From Defluviitaleaceae bacterium (GTDB taxonomy: Bacteria > Bacillota > Clostridia > Lachnospirales > WRAX01): a stretch of 42,028 nt of DNA. Positions 2,900 to 23,007 of the stretch are shown one piece after another (within the stretch, counting starts at the first letter, position 1; the number at the start of each line of letters is the position of its first letter). The stretch is taken from NCBI GenBank assembly GCA_009780415.1, contig WRAC01000021.1, positions 1 to 42,028 on the forward strand. Direction: 5' to 3'. Position numbers and translations under genes: made by a program. The notes under the pieces are model-generated. The model saw only the letters and a program-made list of their open reading frames with translations, had not been told where the DNA came from and did no database searches.

Positions 2900-2987
2900 G
2901 TTGATAATTATGACTTGTAGAATTGGGTTATCGCCGGATTCCATTTTTAACGCGCAATCATCCATTATAACATGGGGGTGTAATATT

Positions 2988-5250: not shown

Positions 5251-5253
5251 GGT

Positions 5254-5643: not shown

Positions 5644-5676
5644 AACAAATAAAAAATAAAGTAAAATGGGGGGGTT

Positions 5677-6945
5677 ATGTCTATGGAAAGTAAATTTCAA
5701 ATCAAACCGGAGGAACGAAAATCATGGATTAGCCTAATGGCGATATGGGCGGGCGCCGTCATTTGCATACCGGCGCTTATGATTGGCGGGCTGCTCGGAA
5801 TGAGTTTTAACCTTCCAAGCGCACTGCTGTGCATCGTAATCGGTTACGGGATTGTTTCCGTTTACAAGTGCTTTATGGGTATGCAGGGGTGTGACACAGG
5901 GCTTCCCACAGTGAGTATGGCGGCTGGCGCGATGGGTACGAACGGGTCAAAATACATAATTTCGTCGCTGCTTGCCATTGCGTGTATCGGTTGGTTCGGT
6001 ATTCAAGCCGCTGTTTGCGGTGCCGCGTTTTCTATGATGATGGGCGAAATGACAGGCGTGAATATCCCCGTTTGGATTTCGTCAATCGGTTGGGGTACCG
6101 TTATGCTGCTGACCGCCGCATATGGATATAATGCGTTAAAGTTTTTGAATTATATTACGCTTCCTGTCCTAATTGCTTTGATGGCGTACTGTATGTTTGC
6201 GGTTTTCACAAGGTTTGACGCCGCAAATATAATCAGCGGTTTTCAGCCCCCCGCCCCAATGCCTCTCATATCCGGCATAAGCTTCGTAATCGCCACTTTT
6301 GCTTTGGGCGGCGTTATTTCTGGCGATTACACACGCTATGCGAAAAACCGCAGGGAAGTAGTCATATCGTCGGTGCTTGGGCTTTTGCCCGCAGGCATTA
6401 TCGTTATCATGATCGGTGCGATAATGACGGTTGTAACGGGTGAATTTGATATTTCCGTTGTGTTATCCGAACTCGGGCTTCCGGCATTCGGGTTAATCGC
6501 CCTTATATTGGCCGCATGGAGTACCAACGTAACCAACGCTTTCTCCGGCGGCATCGCGGTCAGCGACCTTTTCGGGAAAGGCGAGAAGCAAAGGGCGTTT
6601 ATGACCATAATAGCGGGCGGCATCGGCACTTTGCTTGCGGCGTTCGGGCTTATGAACTACTTTGTGGATTTCCTCAGTATTTTAACTGCCTTAATTCCGC
6701 CCGTTGCGGGTGTTACGATGGCGCATTACTGGGTTGTCGGAAGGGGCAGACCCGATAAATTTACCGCGGATACGAGCGTTAAGGTTATTGGTATTACTGC
6801 GTTCGCCGCCGGTGCTATTGCAGCTTATTTTACAGGATTTAATATCCTTACGGGTGACAGGTTCGTATTCTTTGTTTCGCCTGTTAATGGAATCATCGTA
6901 TCGGGGTTAATTTATGTGATTCTGCATAAGGCGTTAAAAAAATAA
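5677..6945 (+). CDS. codB: NCS1-family cytosine/purine permease
   Basis: A 422-residue integral membrane protein with about 12 hydrophobic segments, similar to CodB-type cytosine permeases of the nucleobase:cation symporter-1 family. Visible features are an N-terminal SWISLMAIWAGA segment, a Gly-rich TM1 (GGLLGMSF), QGCDTGLPTVS after TM2, and AAWSTNVTNAFSGG in the second half, equivalent to the substrate-side helix. ATG 5677 follows a G-rich run. The gene starts 33 bases after siaC, so it may share its transcript. No cytosine deaminase is nearby, so substrate choice between cytosine and another nucleobase or base analogue is open. Confidence 0.8.
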   Translation: MSMESKFQIKPEERKSWISLMAIWAGAVICIPALMIGGLLGMSFNLPSALLCIVIGYGIVSVYKCFMGMQGCDTGLPTVSMAAGAMGTNGSKYIISSLLAIACIGWFGIQAAVCGAAFSMMMGEMTGVNIPVWISSIGWGTVMLLTAAYGYNALKFLNYITLPVLIALMAYCMFAVFTRFDAANIISGFQPPAPMPLISGISFVIATFALGGVISGDYTRYAKNRREVVISSVLGLLPAGIIVIMIGAIMTVVTGEFDISVVLSELGLPAFGLIALILAAWSTNVTNAFSGGIAVSDLFGKGEKQRAFMTIIAGGIGTLLAAFGLMNYFVDFLSILTALIPPVAGVTMAHYWVVGRGRPDKFTADTSVKVIGITAFAAGAIAAYFTGFNILTGDRFVFFVSPVNGIIVSGLIYVILHKALKK

Positions 6946-6999
6946 TTAAGCTTAACCCCTCAACACTGGATACGGTTTGGGGAAAGTACTTTAAGGCTC

Positions 7000-7794
7000 T
7001 TGATTATAAAGGCGGGTGTGTCTCTCCTTTTTGTTAGTAATTTTTTCCTTTGGCACCGCGGGACCAAGGGTTCCCTTCGTATCCATGTCAATCCCCTGAG
7101 GTGCGGCGAGCATCCTTGCCCTCCCAATTACAAGAGCGGCCCGCATGTTTTGGGATATTATCTCTTGCATTATGTGATAAATGGGAAGGGGGTTTACTAT
7201 ACGCCCAATGGAAGCTATATTGTTGAGAAAGGCCAAATATTCGTTATAAAACCCAATGAGATGACCGCTTATCAAGCGGATGGAGACGACCCGTGGCATT
7301 ATTACTGGATCGGCTTTGAATCTTCGCTTGAGCTTTCCAATTCACTTGGAGACGGCATAGATCAGGGACGGGAATTTTTTATATGCGGCAGAATATACGA
7401 TTTGCTTTACATGTTAAGCAACAAAAACCATCCCGGCGAAAAAGGCGAAAGGTATGTCCGCATGGCGCAGGGTTACATTCATAAACACTATCAAATGCCC
7501 GATTTGCGCGTGGATGCGCTGGCAAAAAGCCTGAACCTTGACCGTGCTTATTTCAGTAAGATATTCCGGAAGCATATCGGGAAATCACCGCAGCAGTACA
7601 TTGTGGATTATCGCCTGGAGAAATCCGTAGAGCTGATGACGTGCAGTGATTTGACGCCGGGAGAAGCCGCCCGCGAAGTTGGATACGGCAGTACCTTAGA
7701 TTTTTCGAGAATGTTCAGCCGGCATTTCGGTATGTCACCCAGCGCATTCTGTGATAAATACTATAAGAAATCCCCTAAGCAAAAAAACACATAA
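7000..7794 (+). CDS. AraC-family transcriptional regulator
   Basis: A 264-residue AraC-type regulator. Residues about 35-110 form the N-terminal cupin sugar-sensing domain (CPPNYKSGPHV, LLHYVINGKG, DPWHYYWIGFE). Residues about 155-255 form the double helix-turn-helix domain (LDRAYFSKIFRKHIGKSPQQYI, then AAREVGYGSTLDFSRMFSRHFGMSPSAF). The start is uncertain: no ATG is available before the cupin, and I use TTG 7000 with a weak AAGG upstream. It is followed by the broken solute-binding protein and the GH112 gene, so its likely job was control of a galacto-N-biose or similar disaccharide operon. Confidence 0.8.
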   Translation: MIIKAGVSLLFVSNFFLWHRGTKGSLRIHVNPLRCGEHPCPPNYKSGPHVLGYYLLHYVINGKGVYYTPNGSYIVEKGQIFVIKPNEMTAYQADGDDPWHYYWIGFESSLELSNSLGDGIDQGREFFICGRIYDLLYMLSNKNHPGEKGERYVRMAQGYIHKHYQMPDLRVDALAKSLNLDRAYFSKIFRKHIGKSPQQYIVDYRLEKSVELMTCSDLTPGEAAREVGYGSTLDFSRMFSRHFGMSPSAFCDKYYKKSPKQKNT

Positions 7795-7840
7795 TGCTAT
7801 ATATAAATCATATTAATCAATTCCATTCCCAATAATAGAT

Positions 7841-8431
7841 ATGGTAGGCAGCGCTTTTTATCTGGAATCTTATATAAACTTCAACGTCAGCGACGAAAAG
7901 ATGCATAAAATCCTCGAAATCTATGATTTCTTCTATTCCGAGGAAGGTATTAACCTGCTGATGTTTGGATTTGAAGGCGAAGACTATATAATTGAAGACG
8001 GCTATATCGTTTCGCTTCTGGGTACCGACCCCAATACCGGGCGCTTATTAAACACCTCCGATAAATACGCATTCGTTTCCGGCGCGGATGCAGGATTCAA
8101 GAGCGCTGTCACATGGGCGGCTGATATGGTGCAGTACGACGACCCGACCCTTTCGCAGGCGCTTCGCGATATGGCAAAGGCGGAAAAAGAGTACCGCATC
8201 GCAAACTGGAATCCCCCTCCCACCGACCTTCGTATTTCAGCTGTCACCGTTCCTGAAAGGACGGCCATGGCCGGCATCAGCATCAGAAACAGCTGGGCCC
8301 AAATGATAACCGACACATCGGACATATCGGATGAGGATTTGTTTGACCAGTTCTATGCCGATTGGGAAGCCAACGGTTATAAAGCCGCAAAGGAAGCAAT
8401 GACAAGAAGAGTGGCTGAACTGGGATATTAA
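7841..8431 (+). pseudogene. C-terminal remnant of an LplA-type sugar-binding protein
   Basis: The reading frame matches only the C-terminal third of large (about 500-550 residue) extracellular solute-binding proteins of the LplA type: a YLESYINFNVSDEKMHKILEI-like helix, YDFFYSEEGINLLMFG, and the C-terminal FYADWEANGYKAAKEAM. There is no signal peptide, no lipobox, no ribosome binding site at the nominal ATG, and no room for the missing two thirds, because the AraC gene ends 46 bases upstream. The permease genes that normally accompany such a protein are also missing. I read it as a 5'-deleted pseudogene of the disaccharide importer for the GH112 operon. Confidence 0.75.
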
Positions 8432-8480
8432 GATTATACAAGGATTGCGTTGCCATTGTAAATTAATCGGGAGGTTAGTC

Positions 8481-10646
8481 ATGAATTCGAGCAAAGGCTT
8501 AGTAACAATACCCACAGATGTGGACGTAATTCCGCAAACGCTTGAGATTTTGGAAAAATGGGGAGCCGATGCTTTAAGGGATTGCGACGGAACCGAGTTC
8601 CCGGCTGAGCTGAGGGGTTGCGGAGCCAAGATTTACGCCACATATTATACAACGCGCAAAGACAATGCTTGGGCAAAAGCTAACCCTGATGAAATCCAGC
8701 AATGTTACTTAATGACAGGCTTCCGTACCGCTTTTGGCGAAAGTCTGGAGATAAAATTACTTGAGGGTATCAGCGCGGATTTGATGCGGGTGAACAGCCG
8801 CGACGATATCAAGCGATGGTGGGAGGTCATTGACCGGACAACCGGGGAAACCGTCCCGGCGGGGATGTGGGATTACGATGATGATTCCGGCTCTGTCGCA
8901 ATCAGCGGAACCATACCTTACCATGAGTATACCGTAAGCTTTTTGGCTTACCTCATATGGGATCCCGTACATATGTACAACGCGGTCGTAAATGACTGGC
9001 GGGATTTTGAGCCGCAAATCACTTTCGATGCGCGCCAGCCGAAAACAAAGGAATATTCAATGAAACGCCTGCGCCGTTTTTTGGAAGAAAATAAACATGT
9101 GGACGTAATCCGTTTTACAACCTTCTTTCATCAATTCACTCTAGTGTTCGACGAACTGCGGCGGGAAAAATACGTGGACTGGTATGGTTATTCCGCGTCC
9201 GTAAGCCCGTACATCCTTGAGCGGTTTGAAAAAGAGACGGGCTATCCTTTCCGCGCGGAATTTATTATAGATGAAGGTTATTATAATTCCCAGTATCGTA
9301 TACCATCCAAGGAATATAAGGATTTTATGGCGTTCCAGCGCCGCGAGGTGGCGGCCCTTGCCAAAGAAATGGTTGACATCTGCCATGAATACGGCAAAGA
9401 AGCCATGATGTTTTTAGGTGATCATTTTATAGGCACCGAACCGTTTATGGAAGAGTTTGAAACTATCGGACTGGACGCCGTTGTCGGGAGCGTCGGCAAC
9501 GGAAGCACCCTCCGGCTTATCGGCGACATCAAAGGAACGCGGTACAACGAAGGGCGTTTTTTACCATATTTCTTCCCGGACACCTTCCGCAAAGGCGGAA
9601 ATCCAAAAGCCGAGGCGGTTTCAAACTGGCTTTGCGCACGCCGCGCCATAATGCGCAGCCCCATTGACAGAATCGGATACGGCGGCTACCTTAAACTGGC
9701 GTTGGATTTCCCTGACTTTGTAGATTATATCGGGCATATATGCAATGAATTCCGTACCTTTTACAGCAATGTAAAAGGCGCGGAACCATTCTGCTTTGCC
9801 CGGGTTGCCGTGCTGAACTGCTGGGGGAAGATGCGCTCATGGGGCTGCCATATGGTGCATCATGCCCTATACCAGAAGCAAAACTACAGCTACGCCGGAA
9901 TAATCGAAATCCTTTCCGGCGCGCCGTATGATGTGAGTTTTATAAGTTTTGACGATATAACAGCGGAACCCGCCTTGCTTAATAAATTTGATGCTATATT
10001 GAATATCGGCGATGCGGACACAGCTCACACGGGCGGCGAATATTGGGCCGATGAGCGGGTTGTTACTGCCGTCCGCGCGTTTATCGCCAATGGCGGCGGA
10101 TTTATCGGCGTTGGGGAGCCGTCGGGGCACCGGCGGCAGGGGCGCGTCCTACAGCTTGCGGCTGCTCTTGGGGTGGAGAAGGAAACCGGGTTTACCCTCG
10201 GATATGATAAATATAATTGGGATGAAAGACGGCACTTCATAACGGAGGAAATAAAGGATACATCTAAAATTGATTTTGGCGAAGGTATGAAAGGTATATA
10301 CGCGCTGCCGGGAACGGATGTTCTTATATGCCGCGACAAGGAGGTGCGGCTTGCGGCAAACGGGTATTCACGCGGCAGGACAGTTTATATCGGCGGTTTG
10401 CCTTATTCCGCGGAAAACGCCAGGCTGCTGCACAGGGCAATCCTTTGGGTTTGCGGCAAAGACGGGCAATTATGCGAATGGCACACGGATAACCCGCATA
10501 CGGAAATCCATGTTTATCCCAATGCGGGGCGGTATTGCGTTATCAACAACACTTATGAGCCGCAAGAAACAGTAGTCCGCGCGGCGGGCAGGCAATTTGC
10601 GCTTACGGTAGAAAGCGGGGCTTTGCGGTGGTATGAGTATGTTTAA
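8481..10646 (+). CDS. GH112 galacto-N-biose/lacto-N-biose phosphorylase
   Basis: A 721-residue protein of the family's usual length (about 715-750). It begins with the typical VTIPTDVDV...ILEKWGADALRDCDGTEFP segment and contains GDHFIGTEP with Asp314, which lines up in position with the catalytic Asp313 reported for the Bifidobacterium enzyme. A Rossmann-like C-terminal domain (SFDDITAEPALLNKFDAILNIGD, GGGFIGVGEPSG) follows. The enzyme cleaves Gal-beta-1,3-HexNAc with phosphate to galactose-1-phosphate and the free N-acetylhexosamine in the cytosol. Start 8481 follows GGGAGG. I see no stop or frame break, so this gene seems intact although its neighbours are decayed. A D-galactosyl-beta-1,4-L-rhamnose phosphorylase is the alternative within GH112. 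Confidence 0.85.
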   Translation: MNSSKGLVTIPTDVDVIPQTLEILEKWGADALRDCDGTEFPAELRGCGAKIYATYYTTRKDNAWAKANPDEIQQCYLMTGFRTAFGESLEIKLLEGISADLMRVNSRDDIKRWWEVIDRTTGETVPAGMWDYDDDSGSVAISGTIPYHEYTVSFLAYLIWDPVHMYNAVVNDWRDFEPQITFDARQPKTKEYSMKRLRRFLEENKHVDVIRFTTFFHQFTLVFDELRREKYVDWYGYSASVSPYILERFEKETGYPFRAEFIIDEGYYNSQYRIPSKEYKDFMAFQRREVAALAKEMVDICHEYGKEAMMFLGDHFIGTEPFMEEFETIGLDAVVGSVGNGSTLRLIGDIKGTRYNEGRFLPYFFPDTFRKGGNPKAEAVSNWLCARRAIMRSPIDRIGYGGYLKLALDFPDFVDYIGHICNEFRTFYSNVKGAEPFCFARVAVLNCWGKMRSWGCHMVHHALYQKQNYSYAGIIEILSGAPYDVSFISFDDITAEPALLNKFDAILNIGDADTAHTGGEYWADERVVTAVRAFIANGGGFIGVGEPSGHRRQGRVLQLAAALGVEKETGFTLGYDKYNWDERRHFITEEIKDTSKIDFGEGMKGIYALPGTDVLICRDKEVRLAANGYSRGRTVYIGGLPYSAENARLLHRAILWVCGKDGQLCEWHTDNPHTEIHVYPNAGRYCVINNTYEPQETVVRAAGRQFALTVESGALRWYEYV

Positions 10647-11568
10647 TCCGGGTGACTTTGACACCGTCACAAGCGGCGGTATGACCGTTACGCTTTATAA
10701 AAAATTTCCAAGCGTCATAAAATATAGCGTAAACAGAAAAACAATAGACGGACTTCGCAGCCCGGTTAACTCCGTTTCTATCGGGCTAATCGGCGCGGAC
10801 CCGCCGAACTCCGTCCGTGATTATATTCCGCGTAAAGTGGATTACAAAAAGACGGGCAGCGACAATGCCGCCTACACGCTTTACATAGACGATATTTTTA
10901 TTATAACGGTAAATTTTAAGGCCGTTGAAAAGACACTTATCATCGACACGTTAAAAATCGAGGAGCTTACATCCCTGAAGCTTAAATCCATATTTTATCC
11001 AAACAACGGATTGGTAAGCGTTTCAAGCGCAAATAACGCGCAAATAGCGATGATGTGGGCAGAAAAAGGCGATCACACAGATACGCCGCCGGTAGGGGGC
11101 AGCGTATATTCACCCGATATAAACCCGCGCGAAAGTTGGAACAGGCAATATGACCGCATACTGGATTTAAAGTCGTGCGCAAACGCAACCGCGGTTCTTA
11201 TCCCAAGAGCGGACAAGAATACTTTGGATTATATTGAACCCGCTGCCGAGGGAACGCCTATAACCCATGATGAAGCCGCAGGGCGCAATGTGTCGGTAAT
11301 ATTCTTTAGCAACGGCGGGTTGTCCGCCACCATGATTAACAACCGCTCCAGCGAAGGTGAGCGCATGTGGTACAATCTCACACGCGCCGGCGAAAGCGTC
11401 GTTTCCGGGCAAATCGGCGAGGCGCGGCATTATTACCGGCACGAAGCCTCCGTTGAAACACGGAAAACGCTGAAAACCGTCAATGAAAAGCTATTGCTGG
11501 ACGAACTGCCGCTGACAAAGGTTATCATAACCGAAGATACGCAACGCGGTACCGCTGCATATAAGTGA
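10633..11568 (+). pseudogene. GH101 endo-alpha-N-acetylgalactosaminidase, N-terminal remnant
   Basis: The 311-residue product matches the beta-sandwich domain that precedes the catalytic barrel in GH101 enzymes: it starts with a TVTLYKKFPSVIKY strand pair and ends with LPLTKVIITED, the segment that leads into the barrel (normally followed by a Gly-Asp-Gly/Trp-Gln-Asp-Gly stretch). The barrel is gone: after TEDTQ the frame ends within six residues. The first codons overlap the GH112 stop by 14 bases, so it was translationally coupled to it. There is no signal peptide, which is unusual for an enzyme that normally attacks mucin outside the cell. Confidence 0.7.
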
Positions 11569-12457
11569 GCATCCTTTCGATAATACAAGCGAAACCCCGG
11601 CTGCGGGCGATAAATCCGGAAGCGCCGGCGTACCTTTGTGGATTCACCCTATGAAAGCGCGGTTTACTGCCCCCAAAAACGGCAAAATCCGTTACAGGCT
11701 TGAAACAGCCGCTTCTGCGGATCCGGATGCGGCGGTATACTTTACCTGGGCTTCATGCAAGGAATTTATGTCCGATATTGATTATGCGCTGAATGACCCC
11801 AATGTACCGTTCCGGGAGGATTTTGAAAACGCTGATGAAAGGTGGGGCGGGCTTGCATGCGCGAACGGCGGTCAGAATTCACAGACGCATTTAGCCGAAA
11901 AGGTTGAGGAAAACAAAGAATGGTATGTACCCAAAGGCAGCGCCAATGTAATGGGGCTTGATGTAGATGTGCCCGGCCATGGCTTGCAGCCTTTCAATTA
12001 TGTAATTAACGGAAGGTACACTCTTGTTTCCCATGAAAACGCTGCGGGCGAGATTCTGCGCACTATGCCGCAGACCATGCGCCTTGAAGCGGATAAGCGG
12101 TATAGGCTGACTTTTAATTATAAAGCATACAGCGATACTGAAGCGGAGGCCTCAAAAAGCGCTCCGTTTTATGCGGTTGAGATAAAGGGTAAGATAAACG
12201 GTTCGGATTACATCACATTACATCGCAAGGAACTTGAAAACACGCCTAAGAAATTCGACCGCTACGTAAGGGATTATTTTTATCAGGAAAACGAGCCAAA
12301 ATGTATTCATGCTGACATTACCTTTGAAACAGGCGGGTTTAAAAGCATGGAAGACCCCGAAGACGGCGATATCTATCTTGTGTTTACAAAACTTGCGGCA
12401 GGCGGCGCGATTAATCTGTTCCTGGACGACATAAAGGTTGAGGAGGCCGGAAGGTAA
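11569..12457 (+). pseudogene. GH101 C-terminal remnant (carbohydrate-binding region)
   Basis: The frame from a nominal TTG at 11636 (open upstream through 11569) encodes the C-terminal part of a GH101 enzyme. VPFREDFENADERWG, THLAE, GRYTLVSHEN and ILRTMPQTMRLEADKRYRLTFNYKA resemble the galactose-binding-like domain after the catalytic core. It is in a different frame from the N-terminal piece, so the junction near 11,545-11,570 is out of frame as well as deleting several hundred codons. No ribosome binding site precedes it. Confidence 0.65.
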
Positions 12458-12460
12458 ACT

Positions 12461-12919
12461 ATGTTTGGTTATGGAATTGAGGTAAATATCAAAAATAAAC
12501 CTGAGCTTGATCCTGAGTTCATTCCGCTGCATAAATTCAATGAAATATTTTTGAAAACCGCGTCAATCCCATTCTCGTTCGCGGCGGAGCGCAATGATAA
12601 GCAAATATTTGTAAGGCACACCCACATCCGCGGCGATGAGGCTCACGCAAACGCGGACAGGTATTTTATCGACCGTTTGGTTAAGTTTGAGATATGGCAA
12701 AAAGGCGGATTCCGGATATATGAAACCCTTGCCAACGCTATGCTCAATGTGGCGCAATACGAACGCCCAGCCAACGGCGTGCGCTGTCTTGGAATAAATA
12801 TGGAGGGGCCCTTTTTTTCACGCGGAAAAAGAGGCGCGCATCCGGCTGATCTTGTGCTGCTAGATAACGAGCTTTTTGTACAAAAAGTGTATGTTGGCGG
12901 AAAGGAGATTCTTCGTTAA
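12461..12919 (+). pseudogene. chimeric remnant: ROK kinase N-terminus joined to NagA pieces
   Basis: The 152-residue frame is a mosaic. Residues 1 to about 86 match the N-terminal extension of a clostridial ROK-family sugar kinase subgroup, ending in DRLVKFEIWQKGGFRIY. Residues about 87-127 match N-acetylglucosamine-6-phosphate deacetylase around its metal-site loop (CLGINMEGPFFSRGKRGAHP). The last about 25 residues match the extreme C-terminus of the same enzyme (ADLVLLDNELFVQKVYVGGKEI). Kinase motifs (DxGxT), the NagA catalytic histidines and most of its barrel are missing. Both joins keep the frame open. Neither activity is possible. Both would have processed the hexosamine released by the GH112 enzyme. 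Confidence 0.7.
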
Positions 12920-12921
12920 AG

Positions 12922-12960
12922 CGGGTTAATTATCCAACCCGAAAACACTTTTATAGTGTT
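12922..12960. terminator. double hairpin between convergent genes
   Basis: Two adjacent stems, 12922-12927 with 12936-12941 and 12944-12949 with 12955-12960, fill the gap between the plus-strand remnants and the minus-strand histidine kinase. T tracts are weak on both sides; bidirectional termination is an inference. Confidence 0.45.
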
Positions 12961-12964
12961 ATTA

Positions 12965-14032
12965 TTAATGTTTTACTGCCTGTTGAATGGGCAGCGACAC
13001 AGTGAAACTGCTTCCTTTGCCAAGCTCGCTCTGGACTTTTATTTTCCCGTTTTCAAGCTCTAAAATCCTCTTTACAAGCGAAAGCCCCAAACCATTTCCT
13101 TCGGCAGCCCTTGATTGGTCGCCCTGATAAAACTTGTCAAAAATGCGCCTTTTCGTTTCATCATCCATTCCGGCGCCTTTATCTGAGACGGTTACGCAAG
13201 CATCCCCCTCTGAGCTTTTAAGCGCAACATTAATTTCGCCGCCGTCAGGACTGAACTTTATCGCGTTTCCTAATAGGTTTATCCAAAGATGGCTCAGCAT
13301 TTCTTCATTTGCGTGTATCCGTATATTTTCAAGGGTTATAGATACTTCTAACTGCTTTCTTCGCAATTGCGGTTCCAGCAGCAAAATCGTTCTGCGTATT
13401 TGCTCGTCTAAGGAATACTCGTTTTCTTCGGTAACTTTACCCGTGCTTTCAAGCCTCGATAAAAGGAGCACATTGTTAGAAAGCCGTGTAAGCCGTTCGC
13501 TTTCCGATATTATGATGTCAAGATACTCATTGCGCTGTTCATCTGACAACGTTTCTGATTTCAAATGTTTAGCGAATCCTCGGATAGAAGTAATGGGGGT
13601 TTTGAACTCATGCGAAATATTACTGACAAAATCGCCGCGAAGCGTTTCGATATTTGAAAGCTCCTTAACCATTTCATTAAAGCTTAAAGAAATGAGGTCT
13701 ACCTCCTTTGTCCATCCGGTTTTCATCCTTACCTTAAAGTTGCCTGATGCCACTTCCTTTGTAGCTTCGGCCAAATCATATATTTGGCGTAAAAAACGCT
13801 CGCCGCCAATCCGCGCTAATATTGTGCCGGTAAATAAGCTGACAAGCAGCATATATAAAACTAAAAGGATAAGACGGTGCTCGCCTTGAATGATGTTTAA
13901 GTTAAACAAGATTATGCCGACAACGCCTGAAATAGCCATGCTTATTAATAAAATTACAAATATCATGGCGACAAGCAATAGAAGTAACGGTATTTTTTTG
14001 TTAAATATCATTATCCGTTTTTTAGTCCTCAT
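12965..14032 (-). CDS. HAMP-containing sensor histidine kinase
   Basis: A 355-residue membrane sensor kinase. Two transmembrane helices (about 14-45 and 53-73) enclose only a very short loop, so it is an intramembrane-sensing type rather than one with a large extracellular domain. HAMP follows at about 75-127, then the dimerisation helix with phospho-acceptor His141 (NISHEFKTP), N box with Asn256 (NLLGNAIKF), and ATP-lid motifs DKGAGMD and GNGLGLSLV. The short-loop architecture resembles BceS-like kinases that respond to peptide antibiotics through a partner transporter, although those lack HAMP. It overlaps the response regulator stop by 11 bases. Confidence 0.85.
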   Translation of the reverse strand: MRTKKRIMIFNKKIPLLLLLVAMIFVILLISMAISGVVGIILFNLNIIQGEHRLILLVLYMLLVSLFTGTILARIGGERFLRQIYDLAEATKEVASGNFKVRMKTGWTKEVDLISLSFNEMVKELSNIETLRGDFVSNISHEFKTPITSIRGFAKHLKSETLSDEQRNEYLDIIISESERLTRLSNNVLLLSRLESTGKVTEENEYSLDEQIRRTILLLEPQLRRKQLEVSITLENIRIHANEEMLSHLWINLLGNAIKFSPDGGEINVALKSSEGDACVTVSDKGAGMDDETKRRIFDKFYQGDQSRAAEGNGLGLSLVKRILELENGKIKVQSELGKGSSFTVSLPIQQAVKH

Positions 14033-14708
14033 CGTTTTTCACCGCTTTGTAACCCAATCCCCGTACTGTTTCAACAGTAAATTCCGGCCAGTTATAGAAG
14101 CGTTCGCGTAACCTTCCGATATGGACGCTGACCGTATGCTCGGTTGATTCGGTATCTACGCCCCAGATTTCATCCATTAGCTGTATACGGGTGAAGATTG
14201 TGCCGGAATAACTGAGTAATTTATATAGAAGCATAAACTCCTTCTGCGGCAGGGTGAAACGCTCTGTCTCGCGGGTTATTGTTAATGTGTCATAATTCAA
14301 GGTTACCTTACCGATGTTTATTTTCCGTTCATTAACAATCTTAGCCCGCCGCAGCAGCGCCTTGACGCGGAGGACAAGCTCTTCCTCGTCAACGGGTTTT
14401 ATCATATAATCGTCTGTCCCGACAATAAACCCCCTGCGCTTATCCTTGATTGCTTCCTTTGCCGTTACCATTAAAATAGGCAAATTATATCCCGCGCCGC
14501 GCAGCTGCTCGGTCAGGGTATATCCATCCATGCCTGGCATCATTATATCCGTTATCATTAAATCAATGTGCTGGCGGTCTAAAATATCAAGGGCTTCCTC
14601 CGCGTCTTTCGCCAAAACCGGGGTATACCGTTCGCTGATGAGGATTACCTCCAAAAGCTTCCTTATGTTCGGGTCATCTTCCGCCACAAGTATGCGAATC
14701 ATAATCAT
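14022..14708 (-). CDS. OmpR-family response regulator
   Basis: Receiver domain residues 1-120 with acidic pocket AEDD, phospho-acceptor Asp54 (ITDIMMPGMDG), Thr/Ala at TAKEA and Lys at YMIKPVD. A winged-helix DNA-binding domain follows (LPQKEFMLLYKLLSY, TVSVHIGRLRERF, VRGLGYKAV). It is the partner of the overlapping histidine kinase. I use ATG 14708, 4 bases after GAAAGG; ATG 14702 gives MIRILVAEDD and is equally plausible. The gene lies 50 bases downstream of the ABC transporter pair, in the same direction. Confidence 0.85.
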   Translation of the reverse strand: MIMIRILVAEDDPNIRKLLEVILISERYTPVLAKDAEEALDILDRQHIDLMITDIMMPGMDGYTLTEQLRGAGYNLPILMVTAKEAIKDKRRGFIVGTDDYMIKPVDEEELVLRVKALLRRAKIVNERKINIGKVTLNYDTLTITRETERFTLPQKEFMLLYKLLSYSGTIFTRIQLMDEIWGVDTESTEHTVSVHIGRLRERFYNWPEFTVETVRGLGYKAVKNDED

Positions 14709-14758
14709 CCGACCTTTCGTCCGAACCATAGATGCAGAATTATCTTGAAATTATGTGA

Positions 14759-16606
14759 TTATGCGGCAGGCTCAAATTGGCTGTTATAAAGCTCGGCATA
14801 GAATCCGCCTTTTTCGAGCAGTTCAATATGGCTGCCGTTTTCAACAATATCTCCGTCCTTCATTACCAATATGATGTCGGCGTTTTTAATGGTGGATAAA
14901 CGGTGAGCGATGACAAAGGATGTTCGGCCAACGGTCAGTTTATCCATTGCTTCTTGTATCAGATGTTCGGTGCGGGTATCCACAGAGCTTGTAGCTTCGT
15001 CTAATATCATCATAGGAGCGTTTTGAATCATGGCACGGGCAATGGTAACAAGCTGTTTCTGTCCTTGCGAAAGATTAACCTTGTCATTTAAAACCGTGTC
15101 ATAACCCTGCGGTAAAGCCTTGATAAAATAATGAAGCCCTAATGCCTTGCAAGTCTCCTTCACTTGCTCATCCGTTACCCCCTGCTTGCAATAGACGATA
15201 TTTTCCTTAACTGTTCCCTCAAAAAGCCATGTGTCTTGCAACACCATACCAAACTGCTTTTGCACATTTTCACGCGGAACATGATGGGTTGGAACACCGT
15301 CCAATAGGATTTCGCCGCCGTCCAATTCATAAAAACGCATGATTAAATTTACAATGGTGGTTTTTCCCGCGCCGGTTGGCCCCACGATTGCGATTTTTTG
15401 CCCGGCCTTTATGCTAGCGGAGAAATTATGAATGACGGTTTTTTCGGGAACATACCCAAACTTTACATTACGGAATTCTATGTCGCCCTTAATACCGTTA
15501 AGGTGTTTTGCCTTTTGGCTTTCGCCGGCCAGTTCTTCTTCGTCAAAGAATTCAAACACTCGCTCACCGGCGGCGGCTGTTCTTTGAAGGTTTTGGAAAG
15601 CCTGCGCCAGTTGAGAGAGCGGCTGGGTGAAAAGGCGTATGTAAATCATAAACGCCGCAATCACGCCGAATTGGATTGTTCCGTTCATGGCAAGCGCCGC
15701 GCCCGCGACACAAACGGCAACATAACCTAGGTTGCCGATAAACATCATCAAAGGCATCATCAACCCGGACATGAACTGGCTTTTCCAACCGCTGTCAAAC
15801 AGGCTCTCGTTTACTTCCTCAAAAACGCGCTTTGCTTCTTTGCCGCCATTATAAGCCTTAACTATGCTGTGGCCCGAGTAAATTTCTTCCACATGACCAT
15901 TCACGGCACCCAGGTCTTTTTGCTGCCGAACAAAATGCTTCCGCGATTTACCCATTATTACCGCCATGATTATAAACCCGATAATACTCGTTGCAATCGC
16001 GGTCAGAGCCATATGCCAGTTGTTATAAAACATCATAATAGCCGAACCGAAAAACATGGTTATAGATGTAACCAAAGAACCGATACTTTGGTTCAATGTC
16101 TGCCCGATAGTATCCACATCATTTGTGACACGGCTGAGGATATCGCCGTAGCTTGCCTTATCAAAGTATTTAAGCGGAAGCCTGTTAATTTTTTGCGATA
16201 TGCCTGTACGCATATTCTTAGCGACTTTTTGCGTTACCGTCGCCATGATAAAGCCCTGAACGAAATTCAAAATTGCCGAACCCGCATACAGGATTACGAG
16301 CAACAGACCTATTTGGAAAACCGCGTCAAAGTCTACGCCTATCATTTGCCCGGATTCCATAAGCGCGGCAATTACCTTTTGGATTTCGTTTGTCATCTTT
16401 CCTATTTGGTCGGGTCCGATGATGGTAAATACCGTACCCAAAGCGGCGATAACAAGCGAGATTATGATAGCGGGGATATAATTTCTGCAATATTGTATTA
16501 ACTTAATCCATGTTCCCTTAAAGTCCTTGGCTTTTTCGGTAACAACGCCCATTGGCGCGGGGCCGCCGGGGTTTCTCCGCCTTCTTTCCGTTCTCTGCTC
16601 ATTCAT
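14759..16606 (-). CDS. heterodimeric ABC exporter, catalytic-site subunit
   Basis: A 615-residue half-transporter: about 45 cytosolic N-terminal residues rich in Arg, six transmembrane helices (about 50-340), then the ATPase domain. Walker A is GPTGAGKTT, Walker B MMILDEATSS with the catalytic Glu, but the signature is LSQGQ instead of LSGGQ. Together with its neighbour this gives one complete and one degenerate ATP site, as in TM287/288 and BmrCD-type drug exporters. ATG 16606 follows GAGGAGGAAC and overlaps the stop of the upstream subunit by 4 bases (ATGA), so the two are translationally coupled. Confidence 0.85.
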   Translation of the reverse strand: MNEQRTERRRRNPGGPAPMGVVTEKAKDFKGTWIKLIQYCRNYIPAIIISLVIAALGTVFTIIGPDQIGKMTNEIQKVIAALMESGQMIGVDFDAVFQIGLLLVILYAGSAILNFVQGFIMATVTQKVAKNMRTGISQKINRLPLKYFDKASYGDILSRVTNDVDTIGQTLNQSIGSLVTSITMFFGSAIMMFYNNWHMALTAIATSIIGFIIMAVIMGKSRKHFVRQQKDLGAVNGHVEEIYSGHSIVKAYNGGKEAKRVFEEVNESLFDSGWKSQFMSGLMMPLMMFIGNLGYVAVCVAGAALAMNGTIQFGVIAAFMIYIRLFTQPLSQLAQAFQNLQRTAAAGERVFEFFDEEELAGESQKAKHLNGIKGDIEFRNVKFGYVPEKTVIHNFSASIKAGQKIAIVGPTGAGKTTIVNLIMRFYELDGGEILLDGVPTHHVPRENVQKQFGMVLQDTWLFEGTVKENIVYCKQGVTDEQVKETCKALGLHYFIKALPQGYDTVLNDKVNLSQGQKQLVTIARAMIQNAPMMILDEATSSVDTRTEHLIQEAMDKLTVGRTSFVIAHRLSTIKNADIILVMKDGDIVENGSHIELLEKGGFYAELYNSQFEPAA

Positions 16607-18363
16607 GCCGACAGTTCCTCCTCGCTTAATTGGCTCATAGCAATTTGCCGGTATACCTCGCAATTTTGCAATAAATCTTTATGACGGCCATGCCCTGCAA
16701 TCTTGCCCTCGTCCAGCACAATTATTTGGTCGGCATCCATTATGGTCCCGATGCGTTGTGCCACTATTAAACAGGTTGACCCCCGTGTGTTATCCTTTAA
16801 TGCCTTACGCAAATCACGGTCTGTCTTGTAGTCAAGCGCAGAGAACGTATCGTCAAAAATAAATATTTCCGGTCGCCGGCATACGGCGCGCGCTATGGAA
16901 ATACGCTGTTTCTGACCTCCTGATAAATTCGTGCCGCCTTGCGCCACCGGCGCATTATACTGTCCTTCCATTTCCTCAACGAAATCCGAGCCTTGCGCAA
17001 TGCTCACAGCCCGTTTGACATCATCCTCCGCAATCTTACCTATCCCATTATCGCCGTATCCTACATTGGAATTTATTGTCCCCTTAAATAGAACAGCTTT
17101 TTGCGGAACGTATCCGATCATGCTTAACAAGGGTTCCAGCTTGAAATCCTTTACATTTACGCCGTTTAAAAGCACTTCGCCCTCGGTCGCGTCGAAGAAT
17201 CGCGGTATTAGATGTATGAGGGTCGATTTACCGCTTCCGGTAGAGCCAATGAACGCGACGGTTTCTCCTTTGCTTGCTTTAAAACTGATATTTTCAAGCG
17301 CATAATCCGCAGCGTCGGGATATTTAAAGCTTACCTGATTAAATACAACCTCTCCCTTTACATCCGGCTTGCCTTCGCTTCTACCGCCATCCTTAATATT
17401 AGGGTCAGTGTCCAGCACTTCATTAATACGATTTGCCGAAACACCGGCACGGGGCAGCATAATGAAAATCATCACCAGCATCATAAAGGACATTATTACC
17501 TGCATGGCGTAGATTGAAAATACCATCATGTTAGAGAAAATCGGCAATCTATCCATCGCTTGCGCTGAATTTATCAAGTGCGCGCCAATCCAATAAACGG
17601 CAAGGGATAACCCGCTCATAATCATTGTCATCACCGGCATCATTACAGCCATTGCCCGGCTTGTGAAAAGCTGTGTTCCCGTCAGCTCATTATTGGCGCG
17701 TTCAAATTTCGTTTCTTGATATTCCTCGGCGTTATAAGCCCTGACTACACGAAGCCCCGTAAGGTTCTCACGGGTAACGCGGTTCATATTGTCAATCAAA
17801 GACTGCATTTTTTTGAACTTTGGTATAACGAATATCATCAGGAAGCTTATCATCACGATCAAAACCCCTACCGCCACGCCGGTAGCCATCGTCCATTCCA
17901 TACCTTTGCCGGCGATTTTAGTAATAGCCCAAACCGCTGTTATCGGTGCTTTAACGATAAGCTGCAAGCCCATTGTTATCAGCATCTGAACTTGAGTTAT
18001 GTCATTGGTGGAGCGGGTGATAAGGCTATCGGGTGAAAAATGGTTCATTTCTTTCATAGAAAAGGAATCCACTTTGTTAAAGATCAGGCTTCGTAAACGT
18101 CTCGAAAACCTCGCGCCAATCATTGCGGCAAAATAACCGACTATTACAGCGGCGGCTAAACTGCCAAGCGTACATAAAAGCATCATTCCCCCGGCTGTCC
18201 ATATATCTTTCATGCCGCTGCCGGGAGTCTGGACAAGGGTGGTAATCTCAGACATATAGTCCGGCGCTTTCAAATCCAGCCAAACCTGCGTTATAATGAA
18301 GCCTAAGCTGATAAGCGCCATCATCCATTCTTTAGGTTTAAGGTACTTAAAGATTTTTAACAT
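16603..18363 (-). CDS. heterodimeric ABC exporter, degenerate-site subunit
   Basis: A 586-residue half-transporter with six transmembrane helices in the first about 310 residues and a C-terminal ATPase domain. Walker A is GSTGSGKST and the signature is canonical (LSGGQKQR), but Walker B reads IFIFDDTFSALD with Asp in place of the catalytic Glu. This is complementary to the partner, which has Glu but a weak signature. ATG 18363 is preferred over 18369 because AAGGGG then lies 9 bases upstream. It is the second gene after the MarR regulator. Substrate is unknown; lipophilic drugs or antimicrobial peptides are typical for the family. Confidence 0.85.
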   Translation of the reverse strand: MLKIFKYLKPKEWMMALISLGFIITQVWLDLKAPDYMSEITTLVQTPGSGMKDIWTAGGMMLLCTLGSLAAAVIVGYFAAMIGARFSRRLRSLIFNKVDSFSMKEMNHFSPDSLITRSTNDITQVQMLITMGLQLIVKAPITAVWAITKIAGKGMEWTMATGVAVGVLIVMISFLMIFVIPKFKKMQSLIDNMNRVTRENLTGLRVVRAYNAEEYQETKFERANNELTGTQLFTSRAMAVMMPVMTMIMSGLSLAVYWIGAHLINSAQAMDRLPIFSNMMVFSIYAMQVIMSFMMLVMIFIMLPRAGVSANRINEVLDTDPNIKDGGRSEGKPDVKGEVVFNQVSFKYPDAADYALENISFKASKGETVAFIGSTGSGKSTLIHLIPRFFDATEGEVLLNGVNVKDFKLEPLLSMIGYVPQKAVLFKGTINSNVGYGDNGIGKIAEDDVKRAVSIAQGSDFVEEMEGQYNAPVAQGGTNLSGGQKQRISIARAVCRRPEIFIFDDTFSALDYKTDRDLRKALKDNTRGSTCLIVAQRIGTIMDADQIIVLDEGKIAGHGRHKDLLQNCEVYRQIAMSQLSEEELSA

Positions 18364-18389
18364 GAACATTATCCCCTTCTATTATAGTT

Positions 18390-18410
18390 ATAGGCTTCAA
18401 TTCAGCCTAT
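18390..18410 (-). other. hairpin between marR and ABC genes
   Basis: A perfect 7-bp inverted repeat with a 7-base loop lies just after the MarR stop codon and ahead of the ABC gene. On the minus strand it is followed by CTATAAT and then the ribosome binding site, not by a T tract, so it is more likely a processing or operator element than a terminator. Confidence 0.35.
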
Positions 18411-18412
18411 GT

Positions 18413-18862
18413 TTACGGTGAATTGATTTCCAAGAATTGCTTTAGTAAACGTAAAAACTCCTTCGCATCGGGTTCACCCATTTCAATAAATGCGCGGGCC
18501 AAGTTTTCCTCCATTTTTCCCGTTTCTATTTTTACTCGTTCACGCCCTGATTCGGTGAGCGTTACAAGAATATTCCGGCGGTTGCTTTTGTCTATATCAC
18601 GTTCAATATGCCCTTTTTTTTCTAACGAGCCAAGTAACGCTGATATCCGCGCCGTACTGCTGTTAAGGGCTGTGCTTAACTCTGACGGCAGGACTGCCGT
18701 TTCTTTCATTGATAAAAAATGAAGCACGAACAGTTCACCCTTGTTTACTCGGTTAATATCTTCCAGCATATGTTTTTGCTTGTTTGACATAATTACTCCA
18801 AATGCATTAATCGCATTTTTCACATAGTCCGGAATATCTTTTATTTTGTTTTCCGATGCCAT
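18413..18862 (-). CDS. MarR-family transcriptional regulator
   Basis: A 149-residue winged-helix protein: N-terminal helices, a recognition region (ALNSSTARISALLGSLEKKGHIERDIDKSNRRNI in several parts) and the basic wing DKSNRRN, then the C-terminal dimerisation helices. The start is placed at ATG 18862 because GGAGGTG lies 6 bases upstream; the frame runs further to 18943 but without a site. First gene of a likely five-gene unit (marR, two ABC subunits, response regulator, kinase), so it probably represses the exporter until a drug-like ligand binds. Confidence 0.85.
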   Translation of the reverse strand: MASENKIKDIPDYVKNAINAFGVIMSNKQKHMLEDINRVNKGELFVLHFLSMKETAVLPSELSTALNSSTARISALLGSLEKKGHIERDIDKSNRRNILVTLTESGRERVKIETGKMEENLARAFIEMGEPDAKEFLRLLKQFLEINSP

Positions 18863-18914
18863 GCTTTGCACCTCCATCACATAACTAACATATAAGATAA
18901 TTAACAGTATTAAT

Positions 18915-18943
18915 AATATACAGTATTCTTTATGATGTGTCAA
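18915..18943 (-). promoter_or_regulatory. marR promoter with direct repeats
   Basis: On the minus strand TTGACA (18938-18943), a 17-base spacer and TATATT (18915-18920). The octamer AATACTGT occurs twice at a 16-base interval across the spacer and -10 region, a candidate MarR autoregulatory operator. Confidence 0.65.
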
Positions 18944-19016
18944 GAATTATTTTAAATATCTTGCGGTTTTGAGATAATAAATAATGGGGATAATTAACAT
19001 ATTGGAGGTGCCGCTG

Positions 19017-19163
19017 TTGAATAACGATAAAAAAGCAAAACAGGGTAAATCACAAAAAGAAATGAAGCTCATATGGAAATACAGCCCCGACGGCGTATCT
19101 TTGCAAAAGATTATGGAAAAAAACGTTGTTTCGTATGTTGATGCGCGCATAAAGGACAATTGA
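19017..19163 (+). CDS. 48-residue basic microprotein before the recombinase
   Basis: TTG start at 19017 preceded by TTGGAGGTG with good spacing, 48 residues, Lys/Gln-rich first half and then KLIWKYSPDGVSLQKIMEKN, a small predicted helix. I do not recognise the family. It ends 75 bases before the serine recombinase start and reads in the same direction, so it may be a small accessory factor of the element such as a directionality or regulatory protein; this is inference from position only. Confidence 0.5.
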   Translation: MNNDKKAKQGKSQKEMKLIWKYSPDGVSLQKIMEKNVVSYVDARIKDN

Positions 19164-19166: not shown

Positions 19167-19195
19167 TTGAATAAGCGGTTACCTTGATGTATAAT
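19167..19195 (+). promoter_or_regulatory. recombinase promoter
   Basis: TTGAAT at 19167-19172, a 17-base spacer and a perfect TATAAT at 19190-19195, 44 bases ahead of the recombinase start. This gives the recombinase its own vegetative-type promoter. I saw no sigma-E or sigma-K type sequence in its place. Confidence 0.65.
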
Positions 19196-19238: not shown

Positions 19239-20861
19239 ATGAATCGAACAATAAGCAGTTATGAAAGAACTTGGAAAGCGGCTTCGTATATCCGTTTGTC
19301 GAAGGAAGATGAAAAGGCAAAAGGGGGTATTAGGGAAAGCGAAAGTATCTTAAACCAAAGGAATTTATTACTCGGCTACATAAATGATAATAACTTTACT
19401 TTGGTAAAAGAGTACGTTGATGACGGCGTTAGCGGCACGACGTTCGACAGGCCTCAGTTCAACGCAATGATAGAGGACATTGAGCGAGGGCTTATTAACA
19501 TGGTCATAACGAAGGACATGTCGCGGCTTGGCAGGGATTATATACAAGCCGGTCATTACATGGAGCAGTATTTTCCGTCTAAAAATGTGCGATACATTTC
19601 CTTGCTGGATAATATCGACACGTATTTGGACAGCAGTAACAACGACATCGCTCCTTTCAAGGCAATTCTTAACGATATGTACTCTAAGGATATTTCTAAG
19701 AAAATACGAAGCGTTCTTAAAAGTAAAAAAGAACAAGGGAAATTCGTGGGCAGAGCTGCCCCGTACGGCTATCAAAAATCGCCGGAAGATAAGCATAAAC
19801 TCGTAGTTGACCCTATTGCCGGCTTGGTTGTTGAAAGAGTGTTTTCCCTATTTCTAAGCGGCAAAGGCGTTTGTCAAATCGCTGATATGCTGTCTCAGGA
19901 CGGCGTTCCGATACCATCCGTTCACAATAAGATAAAGGTTGGAAACGCCGGAATGTCGTATGGGTTGTGGTCGCACACCGGGGTAAGAAGGCTTCTTCAA
20001 AACGAGGTCTACACCGGAACGTTAATTCAGAATAAGTACAAGAAGCTGAATTACAAGTCCAAAAAGCTGGTTCAGACAGACCCCTCCGTATGGATAATGA
20101 CCCCGGAAGCCCATGAGCGGATAATTTCCCATGATGATTTCCAGAAAGCCCAAAGGCTGCTTGAGGTTACATCGCATCTCAAGCCGTCGAAGCACAGATA
20201 CTTATTATCCGGGCTTCTGAAATGCCATGATTGCGGCTCCTATATATCCCTTACGCCTAAGGATAAGAAATACGGGCAGATATACGGGAGATGCGGAAGA
20301 TATATTGAATACCATAAATTCGGGCTATGTACGACTCACTCTTTCAACTATACGAAATTGGAAGACGCGGTGGTAAAAAAAGTAAGAGAGCTGTGTGCCA
20401 GATATGTTGACCCCGAAAGCGTAAATTTAATATATGCAGACGCTAAACGCAATAAAAGCAGCGCTGAAGCTAAAATCAAGCTTCTGGAAAAGGAACTGTC
20501 CAAAGCGGAGAAGCGCATAGATTTACTTTATGACGATAGGGTCAATGGGGTAATTTCCGTAGAGAACTTCAAACGCTTGTCACAGAAAGCCAACGAGGAT
20601 TGTCAGCGAATAAAAAATCAACTGGATGAGCTGAACGAAGCAGCAGGCGATAATCCGAGTAAGGGCAAGCAGGAGCGTATTATCCGGGAATTTCTTTCGC
20701 TGGAAGAACCTACGCAGGCAATCATGGCGCAGTTAATCAACAGGATTGAGATTTACGAAAACCAGAACAATTCACAGTTTATAGAGATTTGCTTCGTGTT
20801 TCCAGAGCTTCAGGTTATGTTAAATCAGGAGAACGGATTACTTGGTAACATCGGACAATAA
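19239..20861 (+). CDS. large serine recombinase (site-specific integrase)
   Basis: A 540-residue large serine recombinase. The resolvase catalytic domain (about 14-165) has nucleophile Ser21 (YIRLSKED), DDGVSGTTFDRP and TKDMSRLGRDY. A Recombinase domain follows (PYGYQKSPEDKH ... GVRRLLQNEVYTGTLIQNK). A zinc ribbon (GLLKCHDCGSY ... GRCGRY ... GLCTTH) precedes a coiled coil (about 400-475). Such enzymes integrate and excise phages, transposons and the skin-type elements of sporulation genes using short att cores. ATG 19239 follows GGAGG. Its last codons coincide with the point where spoIVB on the other strand loses similarity, so this is the terminal gene of an inserted element. Confidence 0.9.
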   Translation: MNRTISSYERTWKAASYIRLSKEDEKAKGGIRESESILNQRNLLLGYINDNNFTLVKEYVDDGVSGTTFDRPQFNAMIEDIERGLINMVITKDMSRLGRDYIQAGHYMEQYFPSKNVRYISLLDNIDTYLDSSNNDIAPFKAILNDMYSKDISKKIRSVLKSKKEQGKFVGRAAPYGYQKSPEDKHKLVVDPIAGLVVERVFSLFLSGKGVCQIADMLSQDGVPIPSVHNKIKVGNAGMSYGLWSHTGVRRLLQNEVYTGTLIQNKYKKLNYKSKKLVQTDPSVWIMTPEAHERIISHDDFQKAQRLLEVTSHLKPSKHRYLLSGLLKCHDCGSYISLTPKDKKYGQIYGRCGRYIEYHKFGLCTTHSFNYTKLEDAVVKKVRELCARYVDPESVNLIYADAKRNKSSAEAKIKLLEKELSKAEKRIDLLYDDRVNGVISVENFKRLSQKANEDCQRIKNQLDELNEAAGDNPSKGKQERIIREFLSLEEPTQAIMAQLINRIEIYENQNNSQFIEICFVFPELQVMLNQENGLLGNIGQ

Positions 20862-22038
20862 CATGCGTTACGGCCCCGATAAGGCGGCCGTTTTGTATTA
20901 TAGGGCAGCCGCTCATACCCTGAACTATGCCGTTTGTGCGCGTTATCAGCTCTTGGTCGGTAATACGTATAACCATGCCTTTGGATTCGTCGGCGGCATA
21001 GCGGTTTACGCGCTCGATGTATATATCAAACTGCTTGATCTCATTGCCGCTTACGTTTGAGAGTATCACAGCCGGGCCCTCGCGCACTTCGCCCTGGAGC
21101 GCTATGCGCATGGTTTGCGCCGGAAGCTGCCGGTAACCGGTGTTTATGGTGCCATACAGGCCCACGGCGGTATTTTCGGTGATAACGCCTATCGCGCTGT
21201 CCCTGTTTACCTCGCCTACCAGTTCTCCGGGATTACCGCTCTTACCCTTTTTAACGGCAACAATGTCCGTATGGTACAATCGCCCATCCTTCACAGGAAT
21301 CAGCTGTTTTGTGTCTACATCCACCACCCCGTGCCCCAATGCGGCAAAACGCGAATTGGCGGGGTTATAATATGTTATTGTGCCGATGCCTTTTGTCGAG
21401 TCGCGTATCCACAGCCCCAGCTTGTTTTTGCCGTCCTCGGCGGATACGGCGCATGTAACCGTGACAGCCATGTTCTGCCCCGCCCGTTTAATTGTAAGCT
21501 CAACGGCGCTGCCCGGCGGAAGCGATTCCAGATAAGCGGAGAACTGCCTGTGGTCTTTTATTTCCACATTATCGGCCTTTAACAATATATCGCCTGATTT
21601 TATCAAACCCTCGCACGGGCGCGAGGCCGTGCCGTCCGCCAGAACCACCGCGCCCGTCCCAAGCACCATCAGCCCGGTTGTGTCAATCCTTATGCCAACG
21701 GTCATCCCGACGGGCACAATCTCTATATCAGGCAAAATATCAACCGCGACGCTTTTAACGGGAACCCCGAACAGGGAGAGGGTCATCTCCGCCGTCTCTA
21801 TATATATGTTCTCTAAAACGGGCGAATCAATTTGGTAAGCCGCCGTTACGGCCGCGGTCTCCTCAACGCGCGCCCTAAACGGCCCCGCCTGTCCGCGCGT
21901 AGTTAAACCGCCGCCGGAAAGGAAAATATGGTCCGGGAATGTACGCACCGAAGCGGCTGTATATGTCATTAATGAACATAAAAAAAGAACAACTGAAAAA
22001 CCAAAAAAAAGCTTGCGGCCAAAGCGGGATTTTAACAT
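20815..22038 (-). pseudogene. spoIVB: spoIVB, stage IV sporulation protease, 3' end cut by recombinase element
   Basis: SpoIVB is the forespore-made S55 serine protease that crosses the intermembrane space and triggers pro-sigma-K processing. The protein has an N-terminal membrane anchor (about 8-30), a PDZ domain (about 135-200: SGDILLKADNVEI, PPGSAVELTI) and the S55 peptidase domain with His236 (ALGHG) and Ser376 (GMSGCP). It is normal through GAVTHV (Thr391), then reads 14 unrelated or uncertain residues and stops at 20815, inside the recombinase gene on the other strand. The family normally continues with a VNDP...GYG segment of some 20-35 residues that is missing. ATG 22038 follows GGGGAGG and lies 33 bases after the phosphoesterase. 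Activity of the shortened product is doubtful; excision might restore it. Confidence 0.85.
20854..20862. other. probable attachment core, element end in spoIVB
   Basis: Read on the minus strand, SpoIVB follows its family through GAVTHV (codon 393 = 20860-20862) and then possibly I-V, after which the sequence is unrelated. The recombinase stop codon is at 20859-20861. The overlap GACAATAAC could belong both to the gene and to the element, as a shared core would. The partner site is outside the window or lost. Confidence 0.5.
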
Positions 22039-22071
22039 GGAAACATACCTCCCCGAAGTATGTTAACCAGT

Positions 22072-23007
22072 TTATAACTCCGCTATACCGGAAGCCTTAT
22101 AAACATCACAGGCCTTATGCCACACATTGTTTGAAAACGGCTGTCCGTATTCGCCCGCCTCAGCCGCGATTTTCTCCGCTGTTTCTATAAGGATTGTGAC
22201 ATGATCCTCAGCCAGCTCCAAATGCTCTGTAATGATGTCGCTCCAGTGCGGAGCGGCTTTGTATAAACCCGATGCGCGCAGTGATTCAACCGCCCGGCTT
22301 ATATCGTACGGCACCCTGCGTTCCTCTGCAAGCCATTTATTATTTTTGCGCTTAATAATACTGTATGCGGCGGTATTATCGAAATCCAGCGCCATGCCGC
22401 AGGAACCGGGATTAAGGAGCAGCTTGCCCTTGCCGTGCCAATGCCATTGTATATGCGTATGCCCGAAGAGATAAGCCCCGTCCGGCAAGCCGTCAAGCAG
22501 CGCCGACAATTTATAATCCCCCGTTAATATATAATCCGCGCGGCCCTGATAATAGCTGCGGTTAAACGGTTGTTCCTTCATATTCCTGTAATAGTTCCGG
22601 CTGCTCATTAACATAACGGACGTGCCTTTAAAAACATGGCCCGGCATGTGAAAGGCACGCACAAACCCGCCATCCGCATGAAATCCGGCCTCTATCGGCA
22701 AATCCGCAAAAAAACGCGCGTTTTCCTCCGTCAGCCGTTCATGGTTCCAGTACAGAGACGCCATTTGCGCGACGGTCCATGTATTTTTATCCGGGTTCAA
22801 GCCGCGCATATAATCCTCTTTATTACCGCGCACAGCTATTGCGTCCGGCCTTCGTATGGCATCCGCAACCTCGTTCGGAAACGGCATATCCAAATAATAA
22901 TCGCCTAAAAAAACAAACCGCTCCGCTCCGGCGCGTTCCGCGTCGGCTAAAACGGCAAGCAGGGCATGAAGGTTTCCATGGATGTCGGAAATAATCGCAA
23001 TTTTCAT
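22072..23007 (-). CDS. calcineurin-like metallophosphoesterase
   Basis: A 311-residue protein with the metallophosphoesterase motif series: DIHGN at residues 8-12, GDYYLD, GNKED, and C-terminal GHTHIQW, with NPGSCG near 200. These bind a di-metal centre that hydrolyses phosphoesters. The family includes YfcE and MJ0936-like phosphodiesterases; the substrate cannot be read from sequence. It is the first gene of a two-gene unit with spoIVB (33 bases apart), an unusual partner, and is divergent from the SIMPL gene. Confidence 0.8.
   Translation of the reverse strand: MKIAIISDIHGNLHALLAVLADAERAGAERFVFLGDYYLDMPFPNEVADAIRRPDAIAVRGNKEDYMRGLNPDKNTWTVAQMASLYWNHERLTEENARFFADLPIEAGFHADGGFVRAFHMPGHVFKGTSVMLMSSRNYYRNMKEQPFNRSYYQGRADYILTGDYKLSALLDGLPDGAYLFGHTHIQWHWHGKGKLLLNPGSCGMALDFDNTAAYSIIKRKNNKWLAEERRVPYDISRAVESLRASGLYKAAPHWSDIITEHLELAEDHVTILIETAEKIAAEAGEYGQPFSNNVWHKACDVYKASGIAEL

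Follow-up and report, generated by a model that had tools for sequence, protein, structure and literature searches.

A large serine recombinase element interrupts the sporulation gene spoIVB in a Defluviitaleaceae bacterium

Introduction

The described elements that interrupt sporulation genes lie in genes expressed by the mother cell; the accepted explanation is that this cell is destined to die and the spore genome therefore retains the element. The elements skin, SP-beta, vfbin and vrin all split mother-cell genes, and their excision in that compartment leaves a spore genome that still carries the element (PMC4191935). Integrated and excised forms of another element, yin, were present together in one culture of C. 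botulinum (PMC10747680), and mixed integrated and excised states therefore do occur. The attP site of such elements may take the form of a dyad, as described for gin (PMC5595907). The sporulation peptidase SpoIVB is controlled by sigma-G in B. subtilis, and in C. difficile SpoIVB is controlled by sigma-G and SpoIVB2 by sigma-F (PMC11392383). His236, Ser378 and Thr393 are residues named for the B. subtilis protein (PMC12502668). Our literature search yielded no paper joining spoIVB with a serine recombinase or an integration site.

Here we describe a large serine recombinase (LSR) element that lies within spoIVB. The stretch of DNA analysed (the window) is an entire contig, C21, of 42,028 bp, belonging to an uncultured member of the Clostridia whose genome bin has 85 contigs (2.53 Mb, 1.05% contamination).

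Results

SpoIVB departs from its relatives at the end of a recombinase gene

The spoIVB ORF of the window (20815-22038, minus strand) encodes an S55 peptidase domain (E 4.6e-73) and a PDZ domain (E 4.7e-08), as detected by Pfam. The protein follows its family as far as GAVTHV, its native part ending at His392-Val393, and its final 14 residues, IVRCYQVIRSPDLT, are encoded antisense to a recombinase gene. In all relatives examined, SpoIVB goes on past this point with VFV(Q/N/H/R).P..GY. The 5' part of the gene, as delimited by Pfam, by the rejoining described below and by coordinates, consists of 391 intact codons from the ATG to the crossover core (20866-22038, minus strand) and retains the PDZ domain and nearly the entire S55 peptidase; beyond the core the ORF reads into the element as far as 20815. 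The recombinase gene (19239-20861, plus strand) is uninterrupted and encodes 540 aa with the Resolvase, Recombinase and Zn-ribbon domains (Pfam) that characterise an LSR element, and its stop codon (20859-20861) sits in an att arm, touching the breakpoint. The first-pass annotation had proposed that a serine recombinase element interrupts spoIVB, that the gene is normal up to GAVTHV and then continues in recombinase-strand sequence, and that the recombinase ends at the break; the ORF, its domains, the antisense position of the last 14 residues and the relatives continuing past GAVTHV bear out all of this.

The missing 3' end lies on another contig and rejoins in frame

A search of the genome with a degenerate pattern of the SpoIVB C-terminus gave a single match with 0 mismatches, on contig C50 (16129-16203, minus strand), where the sequence from 16203 to 16129 encodes HVFVQNPLKGYGIFIENMMKQERR followed by a stop codon. 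When the C21 and C50 halves were merged at CATGT, a single open, in-frame SpoIVB of 415 aa was obtained, as expected of an element intervening in a sporulation gene. The rejoined protein showed 64% identity, over residues 9-415, with SpoIVB of a member of the same family (G006), to which it aligned to the end, and its C-terminus also aligned with the solved structure of B. subtilis SpoIVB (PDB 9lnf). Removal of the element would thus restore spoIVB exactly, since both halves and the ends of the element are intact. The 3' segment that the first-pass annotation had looked for therefore exists, and uninterrupted SpoIVB of relatives matches the rejoined protein through the C-terminus, but GACAATAAC does not precede the segment; instead of lying next to spo0A, as had been expected, the segment adjoins a glutaredoxin-like gene and pfkA. 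In family members for which the downstream flank was available, spo0A is not adjacent to spoIVB, which explains its absence beside the window gene.

The crossover core, CATGT (ACATG on the plus strand), lies at 20861-20865 on the minus strand, in spoIVB codons 392-393, and is common to C50 16199-16203, with the dinucleotide CA as the centre of the dyad. About this core the right att arm of the element, GGTAACATCGGACAATAACATG (20844-20865, plus strand), and the arm on the C50 side, GGTAACATGGGACAGTCACACATG, are imperfect inverted repeats, forming a palindrome in which 18 of 25 positions are paired, a value equalled in none of 3000 shuffles (0/3000). The reconstructed empty host site had no comparable symmetry. 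A short shared core and an imperfect dyad about a central dinucleotide are thus present, and palindromic arms are, by analogy, the form expected of an LSR attP. The palindrome links the C21 and C50 contig ends to one element. After excision, the circular att site would read GGTAACATGGGACAGTCACACATGTTATTGTCCGATGTTACC. The nonamer GACAATAAC (20854-20862), suggested earlier as the shared core, was rejected as it is present in the attP arm of the element only; its second copy in the window (35981-35989) falls within an unrelated region.

An artefact of assembly or binning, with C21 and C50 derived from different strains or forming a chimera, was also considered, given the 85 contigs, the 1.05% contamination and a probable contaminant contig (C76, see below). 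The matching att arms, the common core and the in-frame joint would then all have to be due to chance, and we find this explanation hardly credible.

While the element is integrated, SpoIVB is predicted to lack the conserved C-terminal FVQNPLKGYGIFIENMMKQERR and to carry 14 foreign residues, and is probably inactive; loss of function is suggested because the lost end is conserved in relatives. The equivalents of His236, Ser378 and Thr393 are located upstream of the break in the alignment with 9lnf, which would favour a shortened SpoIVB that still works and an insertion that is neutral. Every relative listed, however, conserves the lost end, which aligns to the terminus of the solved peptidase domain in 9lnf, and a working short protein is very improbable.

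The split gene is probably the only native spoIVB of the genome

The bin does hold a second, complete spoIVB, which the first-pass annotation would have counted against an interrupted gene. It lies beside spo0A on the 4.2-kb contig C76 (pair at 827-2945, L003) and shares about 40% identity with the window spoIVB. In the spoIVB tree, the window gene grouped with that of G006 (100/100) inside its order (100/100), and the C76 gene fell with another family of the class, on a long branch; that family had been put in the tree because the best matches came from it. The native Spo0A is a further copy, encoded on C11; its identity is 72% with the G006 protein and 54-63% with the proteins of most other members of the family. 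For the C76 Spo0A the value is 44%. SpoIVA is single in the genome. The C76 spoIVB was rejected as the native gene by its tree position and its spo0A; being foreign by both, it leaves the window spoIVB as probably the only native copy. C76 is most likely a contaminant contig of another lineage, though it could represent a functional second spoIVB acquired by gene transfer.

In an order-wide screen of 392 genomes, 275 gave a spoIVB match and, among the matches listed, only this genome stops at the break; a class-wide screen of 391 genomes likewise gave no other spoIVB cut at the break point among the matches listed. Some related genomes had no detected spoIVB. Genes for SpoIVA, SpoIIGA-like and SigE-like proteins are present in the genome under study. 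No sigK match exceeded the family cut-off in it, the best being a sigE-like gene beside a spoIIGA-like gene (C45, L118); sigK may be missing from the lineage or may have been left unassembled, and its absence, if true, would alter the role of SpoIVB in this lineage.

The element is probably a mobile island with a decayed arm

The element spans at least about 22.4 kb (window 1-20865 plus C50 16199-17804), the join of C21 and C50 resting on the att arms and an intervening part possibly being missing. Upstream of the recombinase region, window 1-18943 is assigned to it because it lies between the two att arms. The cargo on this side is metabolic and regulatory, with an ImmA-like metalloprotease (101-616, minus strand), SiaA/DUF6272/SiaC-type regulators (2841-5643, plus), a purine/cytosine permease (5677-6945, plus), an AraC regulator (7000-7794, plus), a lacto-N-biose phosphorylase (8445-10646, plus), a two-component system (12965-14729, minus), two ABC exporters (14759-18369, minus) and MarR (18413-18943, minus). 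The SiaA-like phosphatase, DUF6272 protein and SiaC at 2841-5643 are consecutive and make up a SiaABC-like regulatory module. G+C content on the window side is mostly below that of the flanking host DNA. No phage structural genes were found on the approximately 22.4 kb seen (all main ORFs searched with Pfam, selected ones with PHROGs), and no conjugation genes (relaxase, type IV secretion) were found on the same stretch; the element may include further sequence that falls between the contigs. An integrative-element-type mobile island, not a phage, is the best reading of this content.

Decay marks the C50 arm, which carries an open ParA-like remnant (by eye), a transposase gene and IS copies. 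It also contains a MITE-like inverted repeat, GTTAAATTTTAG..GTGTTCAGCGC and complement (C50, L041, 16455-16535; by eye). The element-side ends of C21 and C50 are both located within or close to repeats or IS-like sequence. Window 1-146 and C40 1-146, each at a contig end, are copies of one repeat with 95% identity, and the window contig was probably broken there; a search for other contigs linked to the right end of C50 or the left end of C21 found only this 146-bp repeat common with C40.

The decayed state of the C50 arm and its IS insertions, together with the lack of a sigK match over the cut-off and the related genomes without a detected spoIVB, are what would be seen if the element were stuck and SpoIVB lost, the lineage being blocked late in sporulation or sporulating without SpoIVB. 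Such a plain, fixed insertion is quite unlikely in our judgement, as the recombinase, the att arms, the promoter and both gene halves are without visible damage.

A small ORF and a vegetative-type promoter accompany the recombinase

Immediately 5' of the recombinase lies a small basic ORF (18984-19163, plus strand; 59 aa, pI 9.5), whose product is a candidate recombination directionality factor. Relatives of this ORF were found just 5' of the recombinase in 21 of 56 LSR loci (among them L043 and L074-L102), as against 1-3 matches in each of five random-ORF sets; the members themselves went into the iterated profile, and its E-values err on the optimistic side. This recombinase-linked family of small proteins may supply directionality factors for serine recombinases. 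The recombinase is preceded by a near-consensus sigma-A-like promoter, TTGAAT-17-TATAAT (19167-19195, plus strand; consensus match only).

Related recombinases are widespread in Clostridia, and searches of viral, plasmid and phage collections returned distant recombinases only. The closest relative (65%; L043 971-2583) is from Defluviitaleaceae MAG isolate Emb289P1bin53 and is frameshifted. A similar att-like sequence, AACATATGACATTAACATG, is present at the end of that recombinase. The locus was rejected as a second insertion in spoIVB, its recombinase being frameshifted and its neighbour a phage-like ORF, not spoIVB.

A forespore-type promoter motif is retained upstream of the split gene

A motif resembling the sigma-F/G type, GTATA-15-GGTTAACATA (22059-22088, minus strand), is located 50 nt upstream of the split spoIVB. 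The same forespore-type motif precedes 12 of 27 spoIVB loci, where 0.002 would be expected, and a looser form precedes 15 of 27 (expected 0.05). Judged by this promoter, the locus does not have the mother-cell target of the described intervening elements, nor would it share their retention in the spore. Because the forespore-type promoter is retained, excision in the compartment that produces SpoIVB would be heritable. Insertion into a gene under such a promoter is an exception to the mother-cell rule, and the consequence is that either excision is inherited or carriers make no normal spores.

A developmental switch like skin, in which excision during sporulation rebuilds spoIVB in or before the forespore and the element is lost, re-inserted or carried as a circle in the spore, would agree with the precise in-frame restoration of a conserved sporulation gene that probably has no other native copy, with the retained forespore promoter and with the open recombinase ORF. 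A decayed C50 arm stands beside an intact recombinase, intact att sites and intact gene halves, a pattern also seen in old domesticated elements; moreover, the recombinases of SP-beta and of C. difficile skin are likewise constitutive, the directionality factor being the control point (PMC5595907, PMC5025042). On the other hand, a promoter-motif search upstream of the recombinase and the small ORF gave only chance-level matches to sporulation-type promoters, the described cases concern mother-cell genes, with excision confined to that cell and spores that keep the element (PMC4191935), and the insertion was seen in one genome only among the matches listed. Taken together, we give such a switch a minor though real chance. 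That it is a developmental element of a forespore gene, with sporulation curing the germ line or the spore carrying a circle that re-inserts after germination, we consider unlikely.

Discussion

We favour, as rather probable, the reversible insertion of a mobile element by which SpoIVB is turned off, with excision probably outside the control of sporulation. Both halves of the gene, the core and the att palindrome are seen directly, as are the uninterrupted recombinase ORF and the conservation of the promoter; we infer the loss of SpoIVB function, the ability to excise and the role of the small protein. In the proposed course of events, the element's own LSR would integrate the island at the CATGT core of the only native spoIVB, and the cell would be left with a SpoIVB that lacks its C-terminal end. 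Excision by the recombinase, probably with the 59-aa protein as directionality factor, would remake the gene for the 415-aa product under the conserved forespore-type promoter. Excision would most likely follow the element's own vegetative-type control, so that SpoIVB would be made only in cells where excision has taken place, and spores would then derive mostly from cells in which the element has been lost or freed.

Integrative (conjugative or mobilizable) elements of Clostridia with serine recombinases differ from the spoIVB element in that no conjugation genes were found on the approximately 22.4 kb seen of the latter; they share with it an LSR at the end of the element by the att site and a small ORF upstream. 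Like skin in sigK of B. subtilis and C. difficile, the present element is a serine recombinase element splitting a sporulation gene, here with predicted in-frame rejoining, and its recombinase resembles that of C. difficile skin in having a sigma-A-type promoter (PMC5025042), in our case by consensus match. It differs from skin in the forespore-type promoter of its target, in the lack of phage genes on the part seen, in having no sporulation-type promoter above chance for the recombinase or small ORF, and in orientation, the recombinase being convergent with the 5' part of the gene and that of skin running in the same direction. The yin element in yabG of C. botulinum is likewise a serine recombinase element in a sporulation gene and occurs in one strain only, but it is prophage-like, sits in another gene, and its integrated and excised forms were demonstrated to coexist (PMC10747680). 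The gin island in gerE of B. cereus ATCC10987 differs in its mother-cell target, its other cargo, its three recombinases and the demonstrated excision in sporulation; it shares with the spoIVB element the nature of a non-phage island, a serine recombinase with a small partner protein, an ImmA-like protease, and an inverted-repeat att site with an attB that is not symmetric (PMC5595907).
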